IMG/VR virus record: IMGVR_UViG_3300006919_000268
Span: 1-30,231 of that record
Source: a virus
DNA: 30,231 bases
Reading direction: 5' to 3' (one strand)
Position numbers and translations under genes: made by a program
Notes under the pieces: generated by a model
Database searches by the model: none
What the model was told of the DNA's origin: nothing
Seen by the model: only the letters and a program-made list of their open reading frames with translations
Shown: piece after piece, positions 2-30,231 of the stretch
Numbering within the stretch: the stretch's first letter is position 1
Layout of the letters: each line of letters begins with the position of its first letter

Positions 2-1108
2 TTTAGAGGACAACTTTCAAATTTTTCAGTATTTGATGCTGCTTTACCAGAAACAGGAAGTGAGTCTGCTACTTCATTATTCAATAATGGAACACCTGTA
101 AATATAAGTTCTTATAGTAACTTACAAGGGTGGTGGCAGTTTAATGCTGGTAGTACTTTTGATGCTGTAGCTGGTATATGGACATCTCCAGATTCAAGTT
201 CAAATAACAATTCAGCTGTTGGTAATTTTCCAAATTCTTTTGAGAAAATGCAAGCGTCTTATCTAGTACAATCTAACTTATTAATAACACAACCTTACTC
301 AAGGTACGGACTTTCATTTGATGGAACTTCGGATTATATAGATGTAGGTAATCCAACAGAGTTGCAGTTTAGTAGTTCATTTAGTATATCTTGTTGGGCT
401 AAAATTAACAATACAGGAAACAATGCTATAATATCTAAAGATTCAAATATTAGTTCTGGTGCAGGTTATCATATAGACTTTAGAAGTGGAAATGCTATTC
501 ACGCCTGGGCATATGGTGCTAGTGATAAACTAATAGCAACTGGTTTAAGTACAGATGTTTGGTATAATATAGTATTTGTTTTTGAAAGCACAGGAGGTTC
601 TAATGGAAATCAAAGTTTATATATAAATGGTAGAACACCTTTAACAAGTAGTACTACAACTTTTGCAGCTTCAACACTTAAAAATTTAAGAATTGGAAAT
701 AGTGAAGTTCTTACTGGGTTTGATACTAATGGTGAAATTTCAAATGTATCTATTTGGAACGCTGCTTTAACAGCAGCACAAATCACAGAACTTTACAATC
801 AAGGTAAGCCTTCAAATCTTAATAATCACAGTGCTTATTCAAACCTTGTTAGCTGGTGGCAGTTAGGGGAAAACAGTTCTTTTGATGGTACTAATTGGAC
901 TGTGTTGGATAAGAAAGGAACTAACAACGGAACAAGTGCAAATATGACAGAAGCAGATTTAATAAACGGAGTTGGAACGTCTGGAAACGGTTTAAGTAAT
1001 GGAATGGGAGGAGCTGATAATATTATCGGAGACGCACCTTATAGTACAGCAAATGCAGTAAGTTATGGAATGGGCGTTGATGCAAAATCAACATCAGTAC
1101 CGAGTTAA
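2..1108 (+). CDS. LamG-domain tail fibre / receptor-binding protein, C-terminal part (5' end outside window)
   Basis: The frame is open from base 2, so the first ATG at 248 is probably internal. The window starts in the last strands of one LamG (concanavalin A-like jelly-roll) unit (GQLSNFSVFDAALPETGSES), followed by a linker with a GWWQF motif. A complete second LamG unit follows at about residues 100-280, running from GLSFDGTSDYIDVGNP through WYNIVFVFE and LYINGR to GEISNVSIWNAALTAAQ. The C-terminus has GMGGADNIIGDAPYSTANA and ends MGVDAKSTSVPS. LamG folds bind glycans, and in phages such proteins are usually fibres contacting the host surface (inference). The fragment is probably the C-terminal part of the gene that starts at 29702. 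Leucine codons here are mostly TTA and CTT, unlike the CTA-rich core genes. Confidence 0.82.
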   Translation, partial: FRGQLSNFSVFDAALPETGSESATSLFNNGTPVNISSYSNLQGWWQFNAGSTFDAVAGIWTSPDSSSNNNSAVGNFPNSFEKMQASYLVQSNLLITQPYSRYGLSFDGTSDYIDVGNPTELQFSSSFSISCWAKINNTGNNAIISKDSNISSGAGYHIDFRSGNAIHAWAYGASDKLIATGLSTDVWYNIVFVFESTGGSNGNQSLYINGRTPLTSSTTTFAASTLKNLRIGNSEVLTGFDTNGEISNVSIWNAALTAAQITELYNQGKPSNLNNHSAYSNLVSWWQLGENSSFDGTNWTVLDKKGTNNGTSANMTEADLINGVGTSGNGLSNGMGGADNIIGDAPYSTANAVSYGMGVDAKSTSVPS

Positions 1109-4701: not shown

Positions 4702-4905
4702 ATGACAATATTTGACCACATAGAAAATATAAAAAACCAGTGCGAAATGATTTTAAAAGAATTAGAAAAGGAAAAATCCGCTTACGACTACTGGATAGAA
4801 GATAATAAAAAAGAACAAAACGAATTTTTAGAGGATTTATATACTGATATAGACGCTAAAAAATTATACAACAAAATAAACAATAAAGAAGATGACACTA
4901 TTTAA
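4702..4905 (+). CDS. small helical protein between annealase and exonuclease
   Basis: The 67-residue product begins MTIFDHIENIKNQCEMILKE and is almost wholly charged helix, probably coiled coil, with an acidic C-terminus (NNKEDDTI). It starts two bases after the annealase stop and overlaps the exonuclease by 14 bases. No motif is recognised. A structural partner of the recombination pair is possible. Confidence 0.6.
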   Translation: MTIFDHIENIKNQCEMILKELEKEKSAYDYWIEDNKKEQNEFLEDLYTDIDAKKLYNKINNKEDDTI

Positions 4906-5542
4906 AATAAGATGTTCAGCTATAGGACAGATTATGTCTAATCCTAGAAGTAAAAAAGAATATCTATCTAAGACTACTGCTAGCTATTGCGAGGAGTGGC
5001 TAAAAGAACAAATCTACGGACGTAAAAAAGAATTTACTAGTAAATACACTGACAAAGGTAATATAGTAGAACAAAGCTCTTTAGACTTTGTAGCTAGTGA
5101 GTTAGGTTATGGTAGTTTAGTTAAGAATGAAAAGTCTTTTGAAAATGAATTTTTAACTGGCACACCAGACGCAATATTAGAAGATCATATAATAGACGTA
5201 AAAAATAGCTGGGACTGTTTTACTTTTCCTCTTTTCTTTAATAACGTTCCTAACAAAGCCTATTACTGGCAAGCTCAAGGTTATTTAGCTTTGACTGGAT
5301 TAGATTCTTATAAGTTAATTTATACGCTTATGGACACTCCAGACGAGCTAATTAAAAAAGAGTATTTTAATAGTAATTTAGACTATGATACATTTGCTAA
5401 ACAGTATAAGTATTCTAGTATAGATTCTAAGTATAGGATTAAAGTATTTGAAATAGAAAGAAACGATACTGATATAGACCAAATTTACACTAGAGTAGTA
5501 GAGTGTAGAGAACATATAAACAACATAACCTATAAACTATGA
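4892..5542 (+). CDS. YqaJ/lambda-exonuclease-like PD-(D/E)XK recombinase nuclease
   Basis: The 216-residue protein has the order of residues seen in YqaJ exonucleases: Glu60 in GNIVEQ, GTPD (90-93) with Asp93, DVK (102-104) with Lys104, and the Q motif QAQGYL (127-132). Such enzymes digest one strand of a duplex end 5' to 3', leaving a tail for the annealing protein. With the Rad52-like protein at 4346 it makes a Red-type recombination module. The acidic residue and Lys of the PD-DXK core are both visible, so it is probably active. Confidence 0.82.
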   Translation: MTLFKIRCSAIGQIMSNPRSKKEYLSKTTASYCEEWLKEQIYGRKKEFTSKYTDKGNIVEQSSLDFVASELGYGSLVKNEKSFENEFLTGTPDAILEDHIIDVKNSWDCFTFPLFFNNVPNKAYYWQAQGYLALTGLDSYKLIYTLMDTPDELIKKEYFNSNLDYDTFAKQYKYSSIDSKYRIKVFEIERNDTDIDQIYTRVVECREHINNITYKL

Positions 5543-5674: not shown

Positions 5675-6448
5675 ATGAAAAATACAACAACAGACAACGA
5701 GCTTAAAAGAGGAGTTTTTAAGCCTTACTATTTAATTAGTGATTTAAAACCAGCTAAAGTAAATAGAGATTTATATAGCAAACACGCTGAGAATTTTAAA
5801 CATAAATTAAAACAAAACGACTGGCTAAGTCCAGTAATAATTTCTAATAAAGGTGATGTAATAGAGGGACACCATAGAATAGAGTCAGCTAAGTTGCTAG
5901 GACAGTCAACAGTCCCAGCTTATATAGTTAGTTGGATTAATACTAATGTTGAAAAGGATCACTTAAATTGTATTATAAGCCTTAACAACGGTAACAGAGC
6001 CTGGAATACTTTAGACTATTTAAAAGCGTTTGCTAGAGAAAATAATGACTATAAAATAGTATATGATTCTTACAAAGCAAATTCTAATAATATATCTGTA
6101 GGCAATATAGTACACTGTTATTTCACTTATAAGCCAGGATATAATGATAATTTTAAAAAGGGATTAGCTAAAATTAATGACAAAAATTTCGGAGATTATT
6201 TAGTAAATAAATTTTCTTACTTAAATAAAGAATACGGTAAAAATAAAATAGCTGCCTATTGTGTTAGAGAGTTAATTTATGTAGCTTATGTTAAAGCTAA
6301 AAAAGATAAAAAAACTATAAATTTTTTATTTAAAAAGTATGAAGAGATGGCTAAAACAGACCACCCTTCAATAACTTCAATTAATAAATTTAAGCCTTTA
6401 ATGGAATTATACTTAAATGAGTATAATATGATAATCACAAATAAATAA
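5675..6448 (+). CDS. ParB/Srx-fold N-terminal domain protein
   Basis: This 257-residue protein has the ParB-type box GHHRIESAKLLG (65-76), following strands LSPVIISNKGDVIE. The Gly-His-His-Arg core matches the nucleotide-binding loop of ParB/Srx domains. A second conserved-looking block is SLNNGNRAWNTLDYLKAF (about 102-119). The C-terminal half is Lys-rich helix with no identified DNA-binding domain. In phages these proteins often sit in replication or recombination clusters and some are nucleases or CTP-dependent clamps; which applies here is unknown. It lies between the recombination pair and the SSB-like gene. Confidence 0.72.
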   Translation: MKNTTTDNELKRGVFKPYYLISDLKPAKVNRDLYSKHAENFKHKLKQNDWLSPVIISNKGDVIEGHHRIESAKLLGQSTVPAYIVSWINTNVEKDHLNCIISLNNGNRAWNTLDYLKAFARENNDYKIVYDSYKANSNNISVGNIVHCYFTYKPGYNDNFKKGLAKINDKNFGDYLVNKFSYLNKEYGKNKIAAYCVRELIYVAYVKAKKDKKTINFLFKKYEEMAKTDHPSITSINKFKPLMELYLNEYNMIITNK

Positions 6449-6454
6449 ATAAAA

Positions 6455-6724
6455 ATGGAAAAACAAAAAACAGTTTACTGCGGTGGCGGTAATAAAAGAA
6501 GCGACAATTGGCTTACAGTAACAGTACACTTAGACAAAGCAAAAGAACATATATTTGACTATAAAGGTAATAAGTATCTAAAGCTAAATATAAACGTTAA
6601 GGACCAGGCGGACCAATACGGGAAAGACGTTAGTTTGAGCGTTAATACATACCAGCCAGAAAAGGAACAAACACAACAGAAAGTAGCTGCTCCAGTAGAA
6701 GAGTCTGATGATTTACCCTTTTAG
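6455..6724 (+). CDS. short SSB-like protein with DDLPF C-terminal tip
   Basis: The 89-residue product ends EESDDLPF, the acidic-hydrophobic tip by which bacterial SSB recruits SSB-interacting proteins. A flexible Gln/Glu-rich linker (QPEKEQTQQKVAAPVEE) precedes the tip, as in SSB. The N-terminal 60 residues form a beta-rich body (DNWLTVTVHL, KYLKLNINVKDQ, DVSLSVNTYQ), which could be a minimal OB fold. It is shorter than a canonical OB domain of about 110 residues. Position in the recombination/replication block supports ssDNA binding. The function is inferred from the tail and context. Confidence 0.65.
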   Translation: MEKQKTVYCGGGNKRSDNWLTVTVHLDKAKEHIFDYKGNKYLKLNINVKDQADQYGKDVSLSVNTYQPEKEQTQQKVAAPVEESDDLPF

Positions 6725-7099: not shown

Positions 7100-7526
7100 T
7101 TTAACTGAAGAGCAAAAAGTATTATTATCAATAGAATATTTTAATAATAAATATAATTTGAATTTAGTTAAGACAGCTAGTAATTTTAGTATGTGGGATT
7201 GTCAAAGTGATAAATTAATAATAGAATTTAAGTTTAGAAATAAATTTTATGAGAATAAATATATACAAATAGATAAATTTTTATCCTTAATTATGGCAGC
7301 TGAGTACTATTCTAAAACACCTTACTATTGTGTTAAAGACGAGAAAGGCTATTTTTTTTATAACTTAGAAGAGCAAAGAACAAACCTTTTAGAGTCTAAG
7401 ATCATAACTCAAAGAGTAAGTTATCAAACAGACTTTAACAAAAATAACAAAATAAATAAATATTTTTATCAATTAAAACCAACACAACAAACACAAATAA
7501 ATGAGCGAAGAACTACCTTACTTTAA
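7089..7526 (+). CDS. small PD-(D/E)XK-like protein
   Basis: The 145-residue product has the sequence MWDCQSDKLIIEFKFRNKF at about residues 35-53. An Asp followed by a strand with Glu-x-Lys is the core of PD-(D/E)XK nucleases, and the next helix (YIQIDKFLSLIMAAEYY) fits the fold. The C-terminal 45 residues are Asn/Lys/Gln-rich and probably disordered. It overlaps the replication initiator by 26 bases. A nuclease role is plausible, but the motif alone is weak evidence. Confidence 0.5.
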   Translation: MKSNLTEEQKVLLSIEYFNNKYNLNLVKTASNFSMWDCQSDKLIIEFKFRNKFYENKYIQIDKFLSLIMAAEYYSKTPYYCVKDEKGYFFYNLEEQRTNLLESKIITQRVSYQTDFNKNNKINKYFYQLKPTQQTQINERRTTLL

Positions 7527-7890
7527 ATTTTTTCCTAGTCAGTGGATAGGGGGAGAGATTAATTATTTATCTAAAGAAGACAAAGGAGCTTTTATTGATG
7601 CTGTATGCCACTACTGGAATAAAGATTGTAAAATGACATACATAAAACTATGTAGACGAATAGGGCAAGAGTCACTAGATACTCTACTAGAAGAGGAGCT
7701 AATACAAAAAAAGGGTAACCAAATTAAAATAAAATTTTTAGATAAACAATATAACGAGAGAAAAGAACAGTATATTAAAAGAGTCGAAGCTGCTAAGAAG
7801 TCTAAAAAGACTAAAGTAAAAACTAATGACCCTTATTTATCTACTAGTAGTATCAATAACTTTATAAAAGCACAAAAGAATGATACTTGA
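7501..7890 (+). CDS. short replication-initiator-like protein (DUF1376/DnaD-type N-terminal domain)
   Basis: This 129-residue protein starts MSEELPYFKFFPSQWIGGEI and continues SKEDKGAFIDAVCHYWNKDC. This is the N-terminal winged-helix pattern (YFKFFPSxW...LSxExxGxFI...YW) of phage replication initiators such as the DUF1376 proteins. Family members usually run past 200 residues with a linker and a C-terminal DnaD-like domain. Here the protein stops after a basic stretch (AAKKSKKTKVK) and a short tail. The DnaB-like ATPase begins 11 bases before its stop, so the two probably act together to load replication. Naming the exact family is an inference. Confidence 0.62.
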   Translation: MSEELPYFKFFPSQWIGGEINYLSKEDKGAFIDAVCHYWNKDCKMTYIKLCRRIGQESLDTLLEEELIQKKGNQIKIKFLDKQYNERKEQYIKRVEAAKKSKKTKVKTNDPYLSTSSINNFIKAQKNDT

Positions 7891-8740
7891 AAAGGAGGAG
7901 CAGCTAAAATATTTATTCGCTTTTAAAGAGGGTAAAATAAAAAGAGGACTAGGTATTGGAAACGAATTAGATAACTGGGTATTATATAAAAGAGGTAGCT
8001 TTTCGATTATAGTAGGCTTAGATAATGTAGGTAAAACTAATTTTATGTTATGGTATTTTTTAGCTTTAAGTGTTAAGCATAATATTAAGTGGTGTATTTG
8101 GTCAGGTGAAAATTCAGCTGGTCAATTGACTAGAGATTTAATACAAATGTATTCACAAAGCAAACTAAACAAACTAACAAAAGCAGAAATAGAGAAATAT
8201 AATAATAAAATAGATAGCTGGTTTACTTTTGTATCTAATAAAAAAATGTATAATCATAAGGAACTATTAAAGATATTTAAGGAGTCTAATTGTGATGCTG
8301 GAGTAATTGATCCTTTTACTGGATTAAATCACGACAGGCGAGTCAATCAATACGAGCGTAACTATTTAATCTGTAATGATATTAGAGAGTTTTGTAATAC
8401 TACTGGCAAAGCTATATATTTAATGACTCACCCTATGACAGAGTCAGCTCGGAGAGTATATCCTCCTGGTCACGAATTCGCGTCTTATATACAACCTCCT
8501 AGAAAATCTGATATTGAGGGGGGTCAGGTTTTCGCCAACAGATGCGATCAGCTATTGAGTATTCACCGTTTTATTAATAGTCCTCAGTTATGGATGATGA
8601 CCCAGCTAAGAGTAGAAAAAATTAAAGATAAGGAAACCGGAGGCACACCAACACTAGACGAGCCGCTTTGTTTTGATTATAACGGAGGTTTAGGATTCAC
8701 TATTGGAGGACACAACATTTTAAAAAACACAAATAAATAA
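7880..8740 (+). CDS. DnaB/RecA-fold replicative helicase-like ATPase
   Basis: The 286-residue protein has Walker A GLDNVGKT (46-53) and Walker B CDAGVIDPF with Asp144. TGKAIYLMTHP (about 175-185) is the sensor strand seen in DnaB and RepA-type ATPases. The N-terminal primase-interaction domain of DnaB is absent, so it is a helicase core only. It probably unwinds or loads at the phage origin together with the initiator encoded just upstream. The perfect AAAGGAGG at about 7889 is inside the gene and not a leader. Confidence 0.75.
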   Translation: MILEKEEQLKYLFAFKEGKIKRGLGIGNELDNWVLYKRGSFSIIVGLDNVGKTNFMLWYFLALSVKHNIKWCIWSGENSAGQLTRDLIQMYSQSKLNKLTKAEIEKYNNKIDSWFTFVSNKKMYNHKELLKIFKESNCDAGVIDPFTGLNHDRRVNQYERNYLICNDIREFCNTTGKAIYLMTHPMTESARRVYPPGHEFASYIQPPRKSDIEGGQVFANRCDQLLSIHRFINSPQLWMMTQLRVEKIKDKETGGTPTLDEPLCFDYNGGLGFTIGGHNILKNTNK

Positions 8741-9170: not shown

Positions 9171-9322
9171 AAAAAAGAACTTTAAACGAATATAGGCAGA
9201 CTAAAGACTCAGTATATAAAAACCCAGACAGTCCTATAGAAAACAGTATAAACTACTTATGTACTATTTACCCAAATAATGCGGACTTAGGAGCAGTAAT
9301 AAGAAAACACTTCCAAAAATGA
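9167..9322 (+). CDS. small hypothetical protein (51 residues)
   Basis: The product begins MKKRTLNEYRQTKDSVYKNP and ends GAVIRKHFQK. It overlaps both neighbours by ATGA, a strong coupling arrangement with the downstream nuclease. No domain is recognised; composition is mixed with one Cys. The conserved-looking layout around it suggests a true gene. Confidence 0.55.
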   Translation: MKKRTLNEYRQTKDSVYKNPDSPIENSINYLCTIYPNNADLGAVIRKHFQK

Positions 9323-9687
9323 ATGCTAACCAAAAAGGAAAACGATTCGAGAGAGACGTAGCAAAGCAATTAAATAATAAATTTAATACTAATGTAAGAC
9401 GTACTCCAATGAGTGGGGGAATGAGTATAAAAGGGGATATTATAGACATTAACCCAGACTCTGTATTATACGACTATCACTGGGAATGTAAAAACCAGGA
9501 AAAGCTAAATATTTGGAAAGCACTAGCTCAGGCTAGAGCAGATAAGCCAATGGGTAAAACACCTGTAGTAGTATTTACTAAAAACTTTGAGAAAGACTAT
9601 GCCTGTTTAGAATTTGAGGATTTTATGAATTTACTTAAAACAATACAAGACTTACAAAATGAAATCGACACTAGAACGAATAGCTGA
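9319..9687 (+). CDS. PD-(D/E)XK nuclease, Holliday-junction-resolvase-like
   Basis: The 122-residue protein has the Hjc/RecB-like nuclease core: Glu11 in RFERDVAKQL, KGDIIDI (38-44) with Asp40, and WECKNQ (55-60) giving Glu56-x-Lys58. A basic loop RRTPMSGGMS lies between motifs, as in resolvases where GGMS-type loops contact DNA. Size and motif order match small phage resolvases that trim branched replication intermediates before packaging. Substrate specificity is inferred. Confidence 0.75.
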   Translation: MNANQKGKRFERDVAKQLNNKFNTNVRRTPMSGGMSIKGDIIDINPDSVLYDYHWECKNQEKLNIWKALAQARADKPMGKTPVVVFTKNFEKDYACLEFEDFMNLLKTIQDLQNEIDTRTNS

Positions 9688-11423: not shown

Positions 11424-11689
11424 TGAAGACTCAATACTTAATAAAAAAAATAGGTGAGGAAGTCATAGAACTACTATTACAAAAAAATGCAGATTATGGA
11501 GACACTGCTAATAACCCTATAAGCATATTTAGTAAGCTAGATTCTATAGAGGCTATAAGTGCTAGAATAGACGATAAACTATCTAGGATTAAAAACAAAG
11601 GAATTAATGACAATACAGAGGACACTGTTACTGACTTAATAGGCTATCTAATATTGTTAAAGGTATCACTAAGACAAAAGAATGACTAA
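11423..11689 (+). CDS. Nmad1 / DUF1599-like protein
   Basis: The 88-residue protein has the family pattern KNADYGDTANNP (21-32), SIFSK, ARIDDKLSRIKN (47-58) and DTVTDLIGYLILLKV (about 68-82). This small all-alpha family (nucleotide modification associated domain 1) resembles MazG-type nucleotide pyrophosphohydrolases and often occurs in phages. No other base-modification enzyme is visible here, so nucleotide pool control is as likely as DNA modification. It overlaps terS by 8 bases. Confidence 0.7.
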   Translation: MKTQYLIKKIGEEVIELLLQKNADYGDTANNPISIFSKLDSIEAISARIDDKLSRIKNKGINDNTEDTVTDLIGYLILLKVSLRQKND

Positions 11690-12152
11690 AAAGCTAACAC
11701 CTAAACAAAGAAAATTCGCTGAGGAGTATGTCAACACTGGCAACGCTTCGGAAGCTTATAGACGGGCTTATGATGTTAGCGAAACTACTAGTCTAGACAC
11801 TATTAAAGTAAACTCTAGTAAGCTATTAGCAGATACTAACATAATACTAACAGTCAAAGAGTTACAAAAAAAAGAAGCTGAGTCTTTCCAAATAACTAGG
11901 AAGGAAGTAGCTGAGGGTTATTTTAAGATGATTAAAAGCTGGGAGTATCTAATGGACCTAGCAGCAAAAGAAAACTTAACTAAGGACCAGAAAGCTAAAT
12001 TCTATTTACTTAAAGAAATGGTTAAGGGAAGTGACTATAGAGGAGCTTATGATTCTATTGCTAAGATGTTCGGATTAAACGCTCCAGACAAACAGGAAAT
12101 TGAACAGACTGTCCATAATATCAATATCAATATAAAGCGTGGAAGCGACTGA
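11682..12152 (+). CDS. terS: terminase small subunit
   Basis: The 156-residue protein starts MTKKLTPKQRKFAEEYVNTG and continues NASEAYRRAYDVS, the standard helix-turn-helix opening of the Terminase_2-type small subunit. The middle is helical and the C-terminus is the strand-like QTVHNININIKR, probably the segment that docks onto the large subunit. It recognises the packaging site and stimulates the large subunit. It overlaps terL by 14 bases. Confidence 0.85.
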   Translation: MTKKLTPKQRKFAEEYVNTGNASEAYRRAYDVSETTSLDTIKVNSSKLLADTNIILTVKELQKKEAESFQITRKEVAEGYFKMIKSWEYLMDLAAKENLTKDQKAKFYLLKEMVKGSDYRGAYDSIAKMFGLNAPDKQEIEQTVHNININIKRGSD

Positions 12153-13317
12153 AATATTCGAACGTAACTACGATTCCAAAGCTAAGATAGTAATTAACCG
12201 AGGAGGTACTAGGAGTAGTAAGACCTGGTCCTTAAATCAATTGTGTGCTTTGTGGTTAATTAGTGGGAACTATGGTAATGGTAACTATATTACTGAGGGA
12301 GTCTGGACCACTGTAAGAAAGTATAGAACTAATCTAGACGGTACTGTTATTAGGGACTTTGAGGATATTCTAAAAGCTGAAGGCTGGTATAATAGTATAG
12401 ATCACAACAAAACTAAAAAACAATACAGATACGGTAAAAGACTAGTAGAGTTTATAGGAGCTGACGATGAGCAAAAGCTAAGAGGAGCTAAAAGAAATAT
12501 ATTATATTGTAATGAAGCTAATGAGTTAGAATATAAACAGGAATTTTTCCAGTTACTAATGAGAACCGAGAATAAAATATTTTTAGACTTTAACCCAGAT
12601 GACGAGCAGATTTGGATTAACCAGGAGCTAGAAATAAAGCGTTCTAATGAAGTAGGAGACGTAGAGGTAATAGTATCTAACTATAAAAATAATTCATTCC
12701 TACCTAAGTCACTAATTAAAGAAATAGAGTACCTACAACAAACAGATAAGGAGTTCTGGAAAATATATGGACTAGGAGAGTATGGCAATATTAGTGGGTT
12801 AGTCTATGAGAATGTTAAGTATGTAGATACTATGCCAGACTGTAAGCTAATAGCTTATGGGTTAGACTTTGGATATTCTATTGACCCTTCGGCTTGCGTT
12901 GCTGTATATCGTAAAGATGACGAGCTATATTTAAAAGAGATTATCTACGAAAGAGAATTAACAAACCAGGACCTAGCAGAAAGACTAAGACCTATTGTAG
13001 GTAGGGATGAGGTTATTTGTGATAGTGCAGAGCCTAAGAGTATTGAAGAGATATATAGACTAGGTTTAAACGCAAAGCCAGCTACAAAAGGTAGAGACAG
13101 TATATTAAACGGAATAGACATATTAAAACGCTTTAAAATAAATGTAGTTAGTAGTAGTAACCTAAGAAAAGAGTTTAGGACTTACAAATGGGCTACTGAC
13201 AAAAACGGAAATAGTCTGCAAAAGCCAATAGGAGCAGATCACTTACTAGATGCTTTGAGATATGTTGCTTTAATACATTTAAAAGAAAATAATCGAGGCT
13301 GGTATTCAATACGATAA
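12139..13317 (+). CDS. terL: terminase large subunit
   Basis: The 392-residue protein starts with GTG inside the end of terS. The ATPase half has Walker A RGGTRSSKT (21-29) and Walker B ILYCNEANE (121-129), with FLDFNP (148-153) as motif III. The nuclease half shows three acidic positions: GLDFGY (Asp243), ICDSAEP (Asp295) and GADHLLDALRY (Asp367). This is the Terminase_3/PBSX-type packaging motor that translocates DNA into the prohead and cuts it. A strong terminator lies 54 bases downstream. Confidence 0.92.
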   Translation: MEATEIFERNYDSKAKIVINRGGTRSSKTWSLNQLCALWLISGNYGNGNYITEGVWTTVRKYRTNLDGTVIRDFEDILKAEGWYNSIDHNKTKKQYRYGKRLVEFIGADDEQKLRGAKRNILYCNEANELEYKQEFFQLLMRTENKIFLDFNPDDEQIWINQELEIKRSNEVGDVEVIVSNYKNNSFLPKSLIKEIEYLQQTDKEFWKIYGLGEYGNISGLVYENVKYVDTMPDCKLIAYGLDFGYSIDPSACVAVYRKDDELYLKEIIYERELTNQDLAERLRPIVGRDEVICDSAEPKSIEEIYRLGLNAKPATKGRDSILNGIDILKRFKINVVSSSNLRKEFRTYKWATDKNGNSLQKPIGADHLLDALRYVALIHLKENNRGWYSIR

Positions 13318-13371
13318 AATTGATTATATTTACACTATATTTTATTGATAATTATTTCATAATTTGTGTAT

Positions 13372-13415
13372 AGAGGAAGTAGTCGGCAAAAGAGCGTTAC
13401 TTCCTCTTTTTTTTT
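13372..13415 (+). terminator. rho-independent terminator after terL
   Basis: AGAGGAAGTA (13372-13381) pairs perfectly with TACTTCCTCT (13398-13407) around a 16-base loop, followed by nine T residues (13407-13415). It should end the early/terminase transcript. Confidence 0.85.
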
Positions 13416-13430
13416 AACAGAGGAAAAAAG

Positions 13431-13474
13431 AGCAAATGGTCAGCAAATGGTCAGCAAATGCTAAGCAAATGGGG
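13431..13474 (+). repeat. four tandem 11-bp iteron-like repeats
   Basis: The units are AGCAAATGGTC (13431-13441), AGCAAATGGTC (13442-13452), AGCAAATGCTA (13453-13463) and AGCAAATGGGG (13464-13474). The shared core is AGCAAATG at exact 11-base spacing, one helical turn, which fits binding sites for an initiator or for TerS. They sit next to an AT-rich tract and just after terL. Confidence 0.75.
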
Positions 13475-13535
13475 TTATATAAGATAAGATAAGAAAAGAA
13501 AAGACAATAAAAGAAAAGATAAAATAAGATAAAAA
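13475..13535 (+). repeat. AT-rich purine tract with GATAAG repeats, possible unwinding element
   Basis: The tract consists of AAGATAAGATAAGAAAAG-type repeats with almost no pyrimidines apart from T. Placed directly beside the 11-bp repeats, it resembles the DNA unwinding element of an iteron origin. It could also be simple low-complexity DNA. Confidence 0.4.
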
Positions 13536-13731
13536 CCAGCATAATTAAAATAAAGAGATTTAAGCAACTAAAAAAGACTAACCTATATGAATATACTAAA
13601 AAACTATTTGAGTGTCTTAGAACTTATCTAAATAGTGTTTAAATAGATATTGAGTTGTTTTATTTAGTTAGTGTTTAGTTGTTTAGTATTTAATTAAAAT
13701 TTATTTTTAGTGCTTTTGTTATAATTCAAAA

Positions 13732-13745
13732 ATTTGTTATATATA
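13732..13745 (+). promoter_or_regulatory. candidate promoter motif ATTTGTTATATATA (copy 1)
   Basis: This exact 14-mer lies five bases before the ATG at 13751 and occurs again at 22757-22770, also just ahead of a structural gene block. A related word TTTGTTATAATT starts 18 bases upstream (13715). Its closeness to the ATG means it could instead be a leader element of the mRNA. Confidence 0.42.
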
Positions 13746-13750
13746 GAAAT

Positions 13751-14395
13751 ATGAAGATCACAATACCAACAAAGTGGGAAGATGTTACAATAGGTAAATA
13801 CATAAACCTAAGACCAGTGTTAAACTCGGAGTTGACTCCAATAAACAGAGTCATAAACATACTAGCAGTGTTAACTGGACAAAAAAAAGAAGTAATTAAA
13901 AATATTAGTCTAGATCAGTACCAAAGTATCAAAGAAAAAATGTCATTCTTAGAAACTGAATTACCTAGAGAACTAAAAAACAATAAATTTAAGATAGGTG
14001 ATAAATGGTATAAATTTGAACTTAAAGCACAAAATTTAATATTTGCTGAGTACATTAATATAATGGAAATATTACAAAGTGCTAAAGATGACCAGGAGGC
14101 TATATTTAATAACCTACATAGAATATTAACTACTATTTGTAGACCTATTAAGAAACGTTTTTTTATGTGGCATAATATTAAAATGGATGCTGAGTTGATA
14201 AGAGAAACACAACAAAACTTTTTTGATAATATGCCTATGACAATAGCCTATCCGATAGGGGTTTTTTTTTACACTCACTCGGAGACCTTAACGGAAATTA
14301 TAAAAACTTGTTTGATGGAGGAAGCAGAGAGACTGAAGAGGGAAACGGAGACAGAGATAGCTTCAATAAAAGGTGGGGATGGTGGCAAACACTAG
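13751..14395 (+). CDS. tail assembly chaperone, gpG-like
   Basis: The 214-residue protein begins MKITIPTKWEDVTIGKYINL. It is a soluble helical protein with no enzyme motif. It is first in the tail operon and its 3' end overlaps an open -1 frame, with slippery T_TTT_TTT at 14263-14269 in the codons GTT TTT TTT. This matches the G/GT arrangement of tail chaperones, where a minor fraction of ribosomes shift to make a longer protein. Unusually, four other tail genes lie between it and the tape measure. The chaperone call rests on this architecture, not sequence similarity. Confidence 0.65.
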   Translation: MKITIPTKWEDVTIGKYINLRPVLNSELTPINRVINILAVLTGQKKEVIKNISLDQYQSIKEKMSFLETELPRELKNNKFKIGDKWYKFELKAQNLIFAEYINIMEILQSAKDDQEAIFNNLHRILTTICRPIKKRFFMWHNIKMDAELIRETQQNFFDNMPMTIAYPIGVFFYTHSETLTEIIKTCLMEEAERLKRETETEIASIKGGDGGKH

Positions 14396-19686: not shown

Positions 19687-21813
19687 ATGGCTGAGAAAAT
19701 AGCTTTAGAATTAGATATTAACGCAAAAGGAGCTACTACTTCTTTAGGTCAATTAGAACAGGAAGCCGAAAGACTAAACGAAGAGTTAAGGAAAGTTCCT
19801 TTAGGGTCAAAGGCTTTTAAAGATTTAAAAAAGGAGTTAGTAGGTGTTAGCAAAGAAATTAAAAACACTGAGCTATCTATGGAGGCTCTAGATAATGAAC
19901 AGGTCGCTAGTGAGTTAGGTAGTGTAGCAGGTGCTGTTGGTGATGTTTCAGCTGCTTTTGTTTTACTAGGTGGGGGAGGTGGCTCTATAGAAAAAACTAT
20001 GGCAAATATAGAAAAGGCTATAGGTATTTCTATGGCTTTTAAAGGTGCTATAGAGGGTACTCAGTCAATGATGAAATTACTTAATAATAGTACTGTAGCT
20101 AATACTATTATAACTAAAGCGAATACAGCTGCTACTTATTTAGCAAATACAGCTATGAAATTACTAGGTATTACTGTTAAAGGTACGTCTAGGAGTTTTA
20201 AAATTTTAAAAGGTGCTATAGCTGCTACTGGTATAGGTTTACTAGTCGCTGTTTTAGGTGAGGTCGTTTCTATGACTATGGACTGGTTAGATAATTCAGA
20301 CGAATTAGAAAAGGAATTATCTGACTTAACAGAAACCTTAAAAAAATATAAAGCCGAAATTACAGACTTAAATAATGAAATAGATTTAGCAACGCAAAAA
20401 GAAATAATTAACGCTAAAATAAGAAAAGCAAACGCTGAAGAGTTAAGAGAGATAGAGACAAATAATCTAAGACAAAAACTCGAAAATTTTACTATAGAAG
20501 AGAATAGATTAAAATTATTACTTGAAAAAAACAAAGACAATGAAGATAAGGCGGCTTTAATTAAAGAACAATTAGACGAAGCTAGATTAAGTAGAATAGA
20601 GGCTAATAATCTTTTAGAATTAAAATTATTAGATAATAAGCTCCAGACTACTATAGAGACAGAACAAAAAATAGAAGAGGAAAAACAAAAAGCAGATGCA
20701 AAAGAATTAGATAGACTAGAAAAATTAAAAGCTAGAAACTTATTAGAAAAAAAAGCTGCTTTTGATTTATTGGTATCACAAAAAACAGCAAACGCTGAGA
20801 GCTTACAAGACTTTATTGATATTGAAAATTTCAAATTAGATCACTTAATAAAAACAGGTAATTTAACAAAAAGTCAAAAAGAATTAGCAGAGTTTAAAAC
20901 TCAGCTAGCTATAGATAAAATCACTAAAGACTTTACAGAAAAAAGACAAAAAAAAGAAAAGGAACAAAGAACAATAAAACAACAGGAAGAGGAAAACGAA
21001 CTTAACGAGTTTTTATTAGCAAAAGAAAATTTAGAAAATGAATATTTAAACACTAAACTAAGTAAGGAACAAAAAGAAATAAACGCTGTAAGAGAAAAAT
21101 ATTTTAATTTAATAGAACAGGCTAAACTATACGGTGATGACACAACTATACTAGAGGAAGCTCAACAAAGTAGAATAAACGAAATACAGCAAAAGTACGC
21201 TGATGAGGAAGTTCAAAGAGCTAAAGATGTTGAAAATGCTAAATTACAATCAGCTTCAGACACTTTAAATGCTTTAATGAAATTAAATAATTCTTTTGCT
21301 GCGGAGGAGTTAGATTTGAGCGAACAAAAAAAGAAAGCTGAGGAAAATAACGACAAAGAAGAGTTAAAAAGGTTAATAGCTTTAGAACAGGCAAACGAAA
21401 TTTTAAGAAAAAAGGCTTTTGAAAGAAATAAAAAATTACAAATAGCTCAAGCTCTAATACAAACTTATCAAGGGGTTAATGCTATTTTTGCTAGTGCCGC
21501 TGCTAATCCAGCTACTGTACTATTTCCAGCACAACCTTTTATAGCGGCTGGTCTAGCTTTAGCGTCTGGTTTAGCTAATGTTAATAATATAAGAAAACAA
21601 AAATTTCAAAGTAGTAGCCAAACAGCTGGAGGAGGTACTAATTTACCTAGTACTTTAAACGGAGGAGGAGGTGACGCTCCAGTAATTGGACCAGCTAACA
21701 CTAGCACACTAATTGACCAGGAACCACAAAGAGTATTTGTAACTGAAACCGATATAACAAACACTCAAAACAACGTAGCTGTAATAGAGGGGCAAAGTAC
21801 ATTTGGAAATTAA
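19687..21813 (+). CDS. tail tape measure protein
   Basis: The 708-residue protein has an N-terminal helical region (LGQLEQEAERLNEELRKVPL) and a hydrophobic segment at about 176-198 (GAIAATGIGLLVAVLGEVVS). A coiled coil rich in Glu, Lys and Leu runs from about 205 to 585, then a second hydrophobic zone (about 605-640, FIAAGLALASGLANVNNI) and a Gly-rich C-terminus. This is the typical layout of siphovirus tape measures. At about 1.5 angstrom per residue the tail would be near 100 nm. It is the last tail gene before the protease. Confidence 0.85.
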   Translation: MAEKIALELDINAKGATTSLGQLEQEAERLNEELRKVPLGSKAFKDLKKELVGVSKEIKNTELSMEALDNEQVASELGSVAGAVGDVSAAFVLLGGGGGSIEKTMANIEKAIGISMAFKGAIEGTQSMMKLLNNSTVANTIITKANTAATYLANTAMKLLGITVKGTSRSFKILKGAIAATGIGLLVAVLGEVVSMTMDWLDNSDELEKELSDLTETLKKYKAEITDLNNEIDLATQKEIINAKIRKANAEELREIETNNLRQKLENFTIEENRLKLLLEKNKDNEDKAALIKEQLDEARLSRIEANNLLELKLLDNKLQTTIETEQKIEEEKQKADAKELDRLEKLKARNLLEKKAAFDLLVSQKTANAESLQDFIDIENFKLDHLIKTGNLTKSQKELAEFKTQLAIDKITKDFTEKRQKKEKEQRTIKQQEEENELNEFLLAKENLENEYLNTKLSKEQKEINAVREKYFNLIEQAKLYGDDTTILEEAQQSRINEIQQKYADEEVQRAKDVENAKLQSASDTLNALMKLNNSFAAEELDLSEQKKKAEENNDKEELKRLIALEQANEILRKKAFERNKKLQIAQALIQTYQGVNAIFASAAANPATVLFPAQPFIAAGLALASGLANVNNIRKQKFQSSSQTAGGGTNLPSTLNGGGGDAPVIGPANTSTLIDQEPQRVFVTETDITNTQNNVAVIEGQSTFGN

Positions 21814-28801: not shown

Positions 28802-29701
28802 ATGGGAGTAATATATAATAGAAATAGAAAAAAAGCCTTATTGTTTATACCCTCTGGGGGTTTAGGTCCTAGTGTTAGTGCTGCCTTTAGTTATGATAAA
28901 AGTAGTTATAATCAAAGTGAGGCAAATCCAACTCCTACAATAACAGGGACTCCAGGAGGTACTTTCAGCTCTGACGCTGGAGTAGTTTTTGTTAGTACTT
29001 CAACAGGTGAAATTGATTTGAGTGCTTCTACTATTGCTTCACACACTATTTTTTATATTGTTGATGGAGTACAAGCGAGTCAAACAATAGATATTACAGC
29101 TGTACCTTATACTTCAACTTCTTCTTTTTCTTTTGATGGAATAAACGACTATTTTGGAATAAATCCAGAGGTAGAATTTGGGCCTGTTAGTAGTATTTCA
29201 ATGTGGGTTAAAAAAGCTACAGCAACTGGTAGTGGTGTTATATTAGGAGGAACTAATAACTATGGTTATACTTTATACCTTGTAAATAATAAGCTTTATA
29301 TGTGGTTTGCTAGTTTAAACAATATATACACTGGCCCAACATCAGGGACTAATACTCTTACTACTACTGACTGGGTACACCTAGCAGTTGTAAGAACCAC
29401 AGTTACTGAATTAGGCGATACTGTTGAATTGTATATAAATGGAACTTCTGTATATACAAATACAGATACTCGTAATAAAAATGAATTAAGCGTAGTGAAT
29501 GCAATAGGTAGAAGGAATCCGTTTGGCGCTAACACTGCTAATTACTTTGCAGGAAATATAGACGAGGTTTCACTATGGAATACAGGTTTAAGCAGTGCAG
29601 CAGTTACAGAGATTTACAACAGTGGCGCACCAAATTCATTAACAAGTTTAACAAATGCGAGTTCAAGTAATTTGAAAGCGTGGTATAAAATGGGAGAATA
29701 A
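28802..29701 (+). CDS. tail fibre with Ig-like and LamG domains
   Basis: The 299-residue protein begins MGVIYNRNRKKALLFIPSGG. Residues about 25-105 form an Ig/cadherin-like beta domain (AFSYDKSSYNQSEANPTPTI, then DLSASTIASHTIFYIVDGV). Residues about 112-280 form a LamG unit (FSFDGINDYFGINPEVEFG, MWVKKATAT, WVHLAVVR, ELYINGTSVY, GNIDEVSLWNTGLSSAAV). The end is LKAWYKMGE. It is next to another LamG gene at 29702, and probably both contact host surface polysaccharide. Confidence 0.78.
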   Translation: MGVIYNRNRKKALLFIPSGGLGPSVSAAFSYDKSSYNQSEANPTPTITGTPGGTFSSDAGVVFVSTSTGEIDLSASTIASHTIFYIVDGVQASQTIDITAVPYTSTSSFSFDGINDYFGINPEVEFGPVSSISMWVKKATATGSGVILGGTNNYGYTLYLVNNKLYMWFASLNNIYTGPTSGTNTLTTTDWVHLAVVRTTVTELGDTVELYINGTSVYTNTDTRNKNELSVVNAIGRRNPFGANTANYFAGNIDEVSLWNTGLSSAAVTEIYNSGAPNSLTSLTNASSSNLKAWYKMGE

Positions 29702-30231
29702 ATGTCAACAGAATTTTACAATCGTAACTGGCGTATGCCGGAAAACACTAACAAGGATAAGTTAAGTAATTATAGTTTAGATTTTGGATCTGGAACAAGT
29801 CAATCTGTAATTGTTTCTTCAAATAACGCATTTAATTTTGGAACAGGTGATTTTACTTTATCAGCTTGGATAAAAGTTGATTCTTTTACTTTAAATTATT
29901 TTTCTTATATATTAGATTTTAGGACAAGTTCAACGGCCAATGAAAGAGCTGTTGCTTTTTATTTAAATGATAATGGAATTTTACAAGTTTGGCTTGAAGG
30001 TTCTTTAAAAATTGGTAGTTCAGGCACTGCTTTAGCTGCAAACACTTGGTATAATATTATTTTAAAAAGAGAAAGCGGTACTTTATCAACTCATATAAAT
30101 GGCGGTTCTGCCGACCAAACAGCTAGTTATACAGGTGATATGAATACTACACCACCTTTAACAATAGGAGCAAGAGCTGGAAATACACAGGCAATAAATG
30201 GCTATATGACAGAGGTATCAATATTTGATTA
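29702..30231 (+). CDS. LamG-domain fibre protein, N-terminal part (3' end outside window)
   Basis: The ATG is directly after the previous stop (TAAATG). The 176 complete codons begin MSTEFYNRNWRMPENTNKDK, then a LamG unit: NYSLDFGSGTSQ, FTLSAWIKVDSF, WYNIILKRE, HINGGSADQ, ending INGYMTEVSIFD at the window edge. This N-terminus reads as the attachment end of a large multi-LamG fibre. Its missing C-terminal part is probably the fragment at 2-1108, after at least one further LamG unit not in the window. Confidence 0.75.
   Translation, partial: MSTEFYNRNWRMPENTNKDKLSNYSLDFGSGTSQSVIVSSNNAFNFGTGDFTLSAWIKVDSFTLNYFSYILDFRTSSTANERAVAFYLNDNGILQVWLEGSLKIGSSGTALAANTWYNIILKRESGTLSTHINGGSADQTASYTGDMNTTPPLTIGARAGNTQAINGYMTEVSIFD

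Follow-up and report, generated by a model that had tools for sequence, protein, structure and literature searches.

The window, which is the whole stretch of DNA analysed (30,231 bases, record G000, an IMG/VR entry classed as linear), carries a short repeat element in the non-coding gap behind its terminase genes. We read this element, at 13431-13534, as an iteron-type (lambda/SPP1-type) phage replication origin displaced from its initiator gene, and we give this reading a probability of about 0.8. Read in this way, the element is of an ordinary kind, an iteron origin, and in an unusual state, detached from the initiator gene. The phages that carry it are a group of marine Bacteroidota (Flavobacteria-type) phages in which the repeats most likely mark the start of DNA copying. 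The element and its surroundings are as follows:

11682..12152, + strand: terminase small subunit (terS)
12139..13317, + strand: terminase large subunit (terL)
13325..13332, + strand: promoter-like TATATTTA, resembling the Bacteroidota -7 element TAnnTTTG
13372..13416, + strand: hairpin and T-run, terminator or short-RNA end, with the near-invariant loop GTCGGCAAAAGAGCGT, just 5' of the iterons
13431..13474, + strand: four 11-bp iterons, candidate initiator-binding sites (units AGCAAATGGTC, AGCAAATGGTC, AGCAAATGCTA, AGCAAATGGGG)
13475..13534, + strand: purine-rich A+T tract of ATAAG/AAAAG units, candidate DNA-unwinding element
13535..13750, + strand: A+T-rich non-coding spacer from the tract to gp13751, with TTTAGTTAGTGTTTAGTTG repeats at 13625-13706
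13751..14395, + strand: gp13751, function unassigned, the right-hand border of the gap in relatives

The core of the repeat, AGCAAATG, starts at 13431, 13442, 13453 and 13464, with a pitch of exactly 11 bp. The tandem direct repeats at helical-turn spacing that are expected of an iteron origin are present here as four units 11 bp apart, and the expected adjacent AT-rich region is present as the purine tract directly 3' of the units (82% purine, 82% A+T, with a single C). The sequence right after the array begins with GGGGTTATATAAGATAAGATAAGAAAAGAAAAG and runs to 13534; the 60-bp stretch from 13476 belongs to the least stable 1.1% of the window, within which several other stretches are less stable. 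We counted the core six times in the window for 1.26 expected, a number reached by 0/100 shuffles, and the dimer pattern of the unit three times for 0.09 expected, beyond all shuffles. The array also gave the top tandem-repeat score of the window (70). When the window was scanned for lag-11 repeats followed by purines, the array scored 20, compared to a maximum of 15 among 60 Markov shuffles, and the sole other match, at 20934 within an A/G-rich coding stretch, was weak (16). Translated in frame, the array reads SKWSANGQQMLSKWGYIR and then a stop. A search of Rfam returned no match, and when the region of terL and the array was compared with isolated phages at the nucleotide level, none matched.

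No other gap in the window without an ORF of at least 50 aa is as long as the one from terL to the next gene (13318-13750, 433 nt). Just upstream of the array, the hairpin at 13372-13407 followed by T9 has a folding energy of -16.3 kcal/mol (z -3.7); the length of its loop, more than 8 nt, is the reason why a simple terminator scan did not report it. The first-pass annotation had described four 11-bp units at helical-turn spacing beside a purine/AT tract, placed in a long non-coding gap downstream of a strong terminator and of terS and terL, with no similar array elsewhere in the window; the analyses presented above agree with this description on every point. The stem of the hairpin covaries: among sequences picked for a homologous terL and for the loop motif, all (38/38) can form the inner six pairs, with exchanges between A-T, G-C and T-A, and a TA..TTTR element was found at most 110 nt 5' of the hairpin in 38/38. 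We labelled TATATTTA at 13325..13332 as promoter-like by its resemblance to TAnnTTTG, the -7 promoter consensus of Bacteroidota. The hairpin has the appearance of a transcript end, with termination after ~80 nt, and the stretch 13325-13416 is a candidate RNA of that length or a specialised terminator. The hairpin with loop GTCGGCAAAAGAGCGT has no Rfam entry and also occurs in phages with more distant terminases. We considered the hairpin as a part of the origin and dropped this idea; L113 and L119 have it beside gp13751, away from the array, and for this reason it is treated as a separate element. Stretches similar to the 13535-13750 spacer are visible in relatives, for example L132 and L127.

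A place right after a hairpin/terminator and ahead of the downstream genes would also suit a transcriptional operator array for a late operon starting from gp13751, or an antitermination site, and winged-helix proteins, such as the one predicted for the window's initiator, often repress. However, the element has counterparts within initiator genes, where a purine tract follows as well, and insertions of genes often separate the array from what flanks it, which makes an operator very unlikely.

We gathered relatives of terL from IMG/VR, which gave 75 distinct gaps with terL on one side and gp13751 on the other. The first-pass annotation had proposed a search for the repeats at the same place in related phages, and this conservation is strong: 69/75 gaps contain a strong 11-bp array with a GATAAG-type purine tract, and most of the remaining ones contain degenerate arrays. 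We observed no array in the terL-gp13751 gap of L263, a MAG relative (Flavobacteriales, terL 67%). In approximately one third of the gaps, inserted genes, many of them DNA methyltransferase-like, add to the length, with the array retained. In distant relatives the units are AGCAATNCTTA, AGCATTACTAT, AGCGTTTGCTT or GCTTAAGTACT, and the 11-bp period and the tract are unchanged. In L211, L212 and L225, whose terL is ~27% identical to that of the window, the array starts within or at the terL stop. Given its resemblance to the DNA that codes for initiator linkers, the array could in principle be a functionless, decayed remnant of such a linker; the retention of array and tract across the relatives, the turnover of the units under a constant period and the failure of shuffles to reproduce the array all argue against this, and we hold it to be extremely improbable.

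The terL-gp13751 gap is an insertion hotspot (L004, L007, L015, L083, L112, L113, L119, L216), in which the inserts beside the array are either methyltransferase-like genes or small ORFs that bring along terminators of their own. The position of the array after terL is common to two terminase lineages, that of L211, L212 and L225 and that of the window.

The other check that had been proposed gave a negative result. The absence of a shift in GC skew at the array had been named as one of two observations that would speak against the first-pass proposal, and we observed neither a sign change nor a minimum of the skew at the array. Since the main genes of the phage are all on one strand, GC skew is a weak test here.

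The same element was found inside initiator genes. An exact scan of viral contigs for AGCAAATGNTMAGCAAATG returned 67 stretches, and outside the terL family 16/23 pattern matches fall in initiator-like genes, usually in the linker-coding part after the N-terminal domain and often with purine-rich DNA next to them. The in-gene element consists of 11-bp units and then AAGATAAGA-type purines, between the DNA-binding and the C-terminal parts. When ten array-bearing proteins were tested, eight matched DUF1376, Lin1244_N or DUF6291, and the other two matched DnaD-like or replication-initiation PHROGs. In L031, the initiator N-domain family of the window is fused to a DnaD-like/O-like C-terminal part, and four AGCAAA units lie between the two. 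The isolates phi10:1, morran9-1 and Arctus_1 have 11-bp-periodic linker DNA and a purine tract within the homologous gene. In these linkers the match frequency by lag peaks at 11 (0.40 and 0.47) compared to ~0.3 at most other lags; the initiator genes of the window clade exhibited no lag-11 peak (0.33). Because 11 is not a multiple of 3, the repeat is a feature of the DNA, one that the protein tolerates, and not a protein repeat. Frame-ignoring 11-bp linker repeats, often with purine tracts, are seen in the initiator genes of L031, L005, L020, L036, L061, L063 and L066. Overall, these results suggest that in-gene origins are widespread in phages with DUF1376, Lin1244_N and DnaD-like initiators and that they could be found systematically.

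These in-gene copies bear directly on the choice between an origin and a packaging site, which the first-pass annotation had offered together. Tandem repeats near terminase genes are typical of packaging sites, the array adjoins terS/terL, and its position after terL is shared with phages whose terL is just 27% identical; a pac site (headful, TerS-bound) or a cos end beside the terminase genes could be marked in this way. Such an element would be expected only with terminase genes, whereas initiator genes carry it too, in sister phages, in isolates and in phages outside the family. We therefore argue that the element itself is probably no packaging signal, given that the in-gene copies lie kilobases from the terminase genes. 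The purine/AT tract is, in addition, a hallmark of origins. With regard to cos, the assemblies of relatives cross the array: at least three contigs (G006, G008, G009) wrap around, which means that the assemblies pass through it, and contig ends are scattered relative to terL. Many relatives' contigs stop at 15-19 kb past terL, inside or close to a laminin-G-like region with several paralogous matches. A fixed cos end at the array is disfavoured, and pac or cos as a whole appears unlikely. The origin half of the earlier proposal is well supported by the conserved position, the in-gene counterparts and the two-copy intermediates described below; the packaging half is not, in view of the copies in initiator genes outside the terL family and of contigs that run through the array and end at scattered places. 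A terminase search of six phages with in-gene arrays, some of whose records are fragments, gave Terminase_3 above the cut-off in one only.

An array in the initiator gene together with a second one after terL was found in seven large contigs (G004, G006, G007, G008, G009, G010 and G016), with two extra marginal matches, at threshold, in G008. In the same scan, the window, G001 and G013 have the array after terL only. No match at the scan threshold was obtained for G002, G003, G011 and G012, yet post-terL arrays are visible in their contigs, and G005 (L122), with degenerate arrays in both places, escapes the scan. In an initiator tree that rests on ~100 columns and contains some weak deep forks, the 35 window-type proteins form one clade (support 100/99, stem 0.77), and its nearest sisters, L135 and L127, each have two arrays. 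Members of the window clade score 10-13 for an in-gene array, which equals the background, compared to mostly 13-20 outside it, L121 (9) and L122 (12) being the exceptions there. An array within the initiator gene, as expected of an origin of this type, is present in sisters and isolates and absent from the window clade, whose 35 initiators thus appear, from their sequences, to have lost the in-gene copy. The units of the two copies within one phage are more alike than units between phages (p = 0.013, 6 groups), a result of modest strength for which the blocks were copied by hand from the loci and which rests on six groups, with L122 and L225 departing from it.

The parsimonious reading of these distributions would be that the in-gene copy came first and that duplication and then loss followed. 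The ancestral state would be an array within the initiator gene, the arrangement of lambda O; the copy after terL would have been added to it, as SPP1 oriR; and the window clade would then have lost the in-gene copy, leaving the extragenic copy as the sole remaining candidate of its kind. Because it is the only array left there, the post-terL array should be the origin of the window clade, and it is probably the only one.

The genes of the window that are relevant to its use as an origin are as follows:

4892-5542 (early region): recombination exonuclease
5675-6448 (early region): ParB-like protein
6455..6724, + strand: small acidic-tailed protein ending DDLPF, possible SSB
7501..7890, + strand: initiator-like protein of 129 aa, predicted winged helix, without an in-gene array
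7880..8740, + strand: DnaB-like RecA-fold helicase, overlapping the initiator gene
9319-9687 (early region): Holliday-junction resolvase

Family searches with the 6455..6724 protein gave no decisive match. The initiator-like protein (ORF 7501-7890) matched phrog_29280 (6.9e-16, profile positions 1-112 of 286) and phrog_9327, a 'primosomal protein' (3.9e-09); Pfam, with DUF1376 and Lin1244_N tested, gave no match above the cut-off. It retains the N-domain and a short tail only, with no large C-terminal domain. The structure model of the protein shows a winged-helix fold and, at the C-terminus, a long helix. Its structural neighbours are largely winged helices, all with Z < 6, a level common by chance, and the individual scores are in that chance-level range (ORC2 WH 5.9, DnaD-N 4.5, a plasmid Rep-DNA complex 4.2). 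A PDB sequence search with the protein returned nothing, and Foldseek with the model returned no match at E <= 0.001. In isolated Cellulophaga and Flavobacterium phages, the gene that follows the homologous one codes for a primase or a primase/helicase. An initiator of the same phage with a DNA-binding domain, encoded next to a helicase or helicase-loader gene, is expected for an origin of this kind, and the predicted winged-helix ORF 7501-7890, which overlaps the DnaB-like helicase gene, is a plausible candidate. By analogy, binding, strand opening, helicase loading and initiation would all take place at the array. The winged-helix initiator (ORF 7501-7890) would bind the four 11-bp units on one helix face and open the adjacent purine/AT tract; the DnaB-like helicase (ORF 7880-8740) would be loaded at the opened tract, and theta replication would start.

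Among known systems, SPP1 has oriL inside the initiator gene 38, whereas oriR occupies a non-coding gap of the late region, by moron genes and transcription signals (PMC6316719, PMC3485210). One proposed role of SPP1 oriR is a fork block with G38P bound, which leads to concatemer formation (PMC3485210). As observed here, oriL and oriR combine direct repeats with an AT-rich unwinding region. The two-array relatives of the window have the SPP1 layout, with an in-gene and an extragenic copy, and the gap of the relatives also gains genes. In contrast to SPP1, the window clade is without an in-gene copy, and the unit sequence, the host phylum and the initiator sequence differ. The oriR precedent makes the extragenic array compatible with an origin of the lambda/SPP1 type. 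In the two-array phages, the extragenic copy may serve as a second origin or as a fork barrier. The window's array could, by extension, be a secondary initiator-binding element (a fork barrier or an incompatibility/titration locus) that triggers concatemers, with the true origin elsewhere. The fork block proposed for oriR when G38P is bound (PMC3485210), the possibility of such a role for the extragenic copy of the two-array relatives and the presence of genes for an exonuclease, a possible SSB and a Holliday-junction resolvase, available for recombination-dependent replication, are all consistent with this idea. However, the window clade has no other such array, which would leave the site to act by itself; the adjoining purine tract is moreover kept, and we regard a purely secondary role as improbable compared to an origin.

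In lambda, the middle of gene O contains four iterons and an AT tract (PMC7466680). The window likewise has four iterons beside an AT-rich tract, and relatives carry the array midway along the initiator gene, between the DNA-binding part and the remainder. Unlike in lambda, the window's array is outside the gene, 5.5 kb downstream, and the initiator has just 129 aa, with no large C-terminal domain. The iterons of lambda are also longer than the 11-bp pitch of the window's units. P1 offers a precedent for a detachable in-gene origin: its oriL is an AT-rich region in the lytic initiator gene repL, is required for replication and also functions when a non-coding copy is provided in trans (PMC9948254). 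Unlike the window's element, P1 oriL is described in the abstract of that paper without an 11-bp array. Closer to the window, Cellulophaga phi10:1 and Flavobacterium morran9-1 share a homologous initiator N-domain (36-43% identity), and their initiator gene is followed by a primase/helicase or a primase gene. In contrast to the window, these isolates keep the array in the gene, and no second such array was found after terL in the stretches covered (31 of 54 kb and 35 of 38 kb, respectively).

Bacteroidota phage origins seem to be little studied; a limited search of the open-access literature found no described origin of a Bacteroidota phage or flavophage, nor an in-gene origin with DUF1376. 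The series from in-gene only to both to extragenic only suggests how an origin copied out of its initiator gene may replace the original, and the two-array relatives are a natural test of the SPP1 oriL/oriR model. A general rule for finding origins is also suggested, which is to look within DUF1376, Lin1244_N or DnaD-like genes for linkers whose DNA has a frame-ignoring 11-bp periodicity and then a purine tract. In the window, the short region 13360-13550 makes the origin idea directly testable. A further proposal, which we consider unlikely, is that the clade moved its sole origin beside the terminase and coupled it there to the conserved ~80-nt structured transcript and to packaging. One site would then be early origin, theta-to-concatemer switch and packaging entry, with the small RNA possibly acting as a primer or regulator.

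A laminin-G-like gene occupies the left end of the window (2-1108), and a related stretch lies at its right end (28802-30229). The laminin-G-like copies are paralogous in relatives, whose contigs often stop in that region, and the window record probably breaks there as well.
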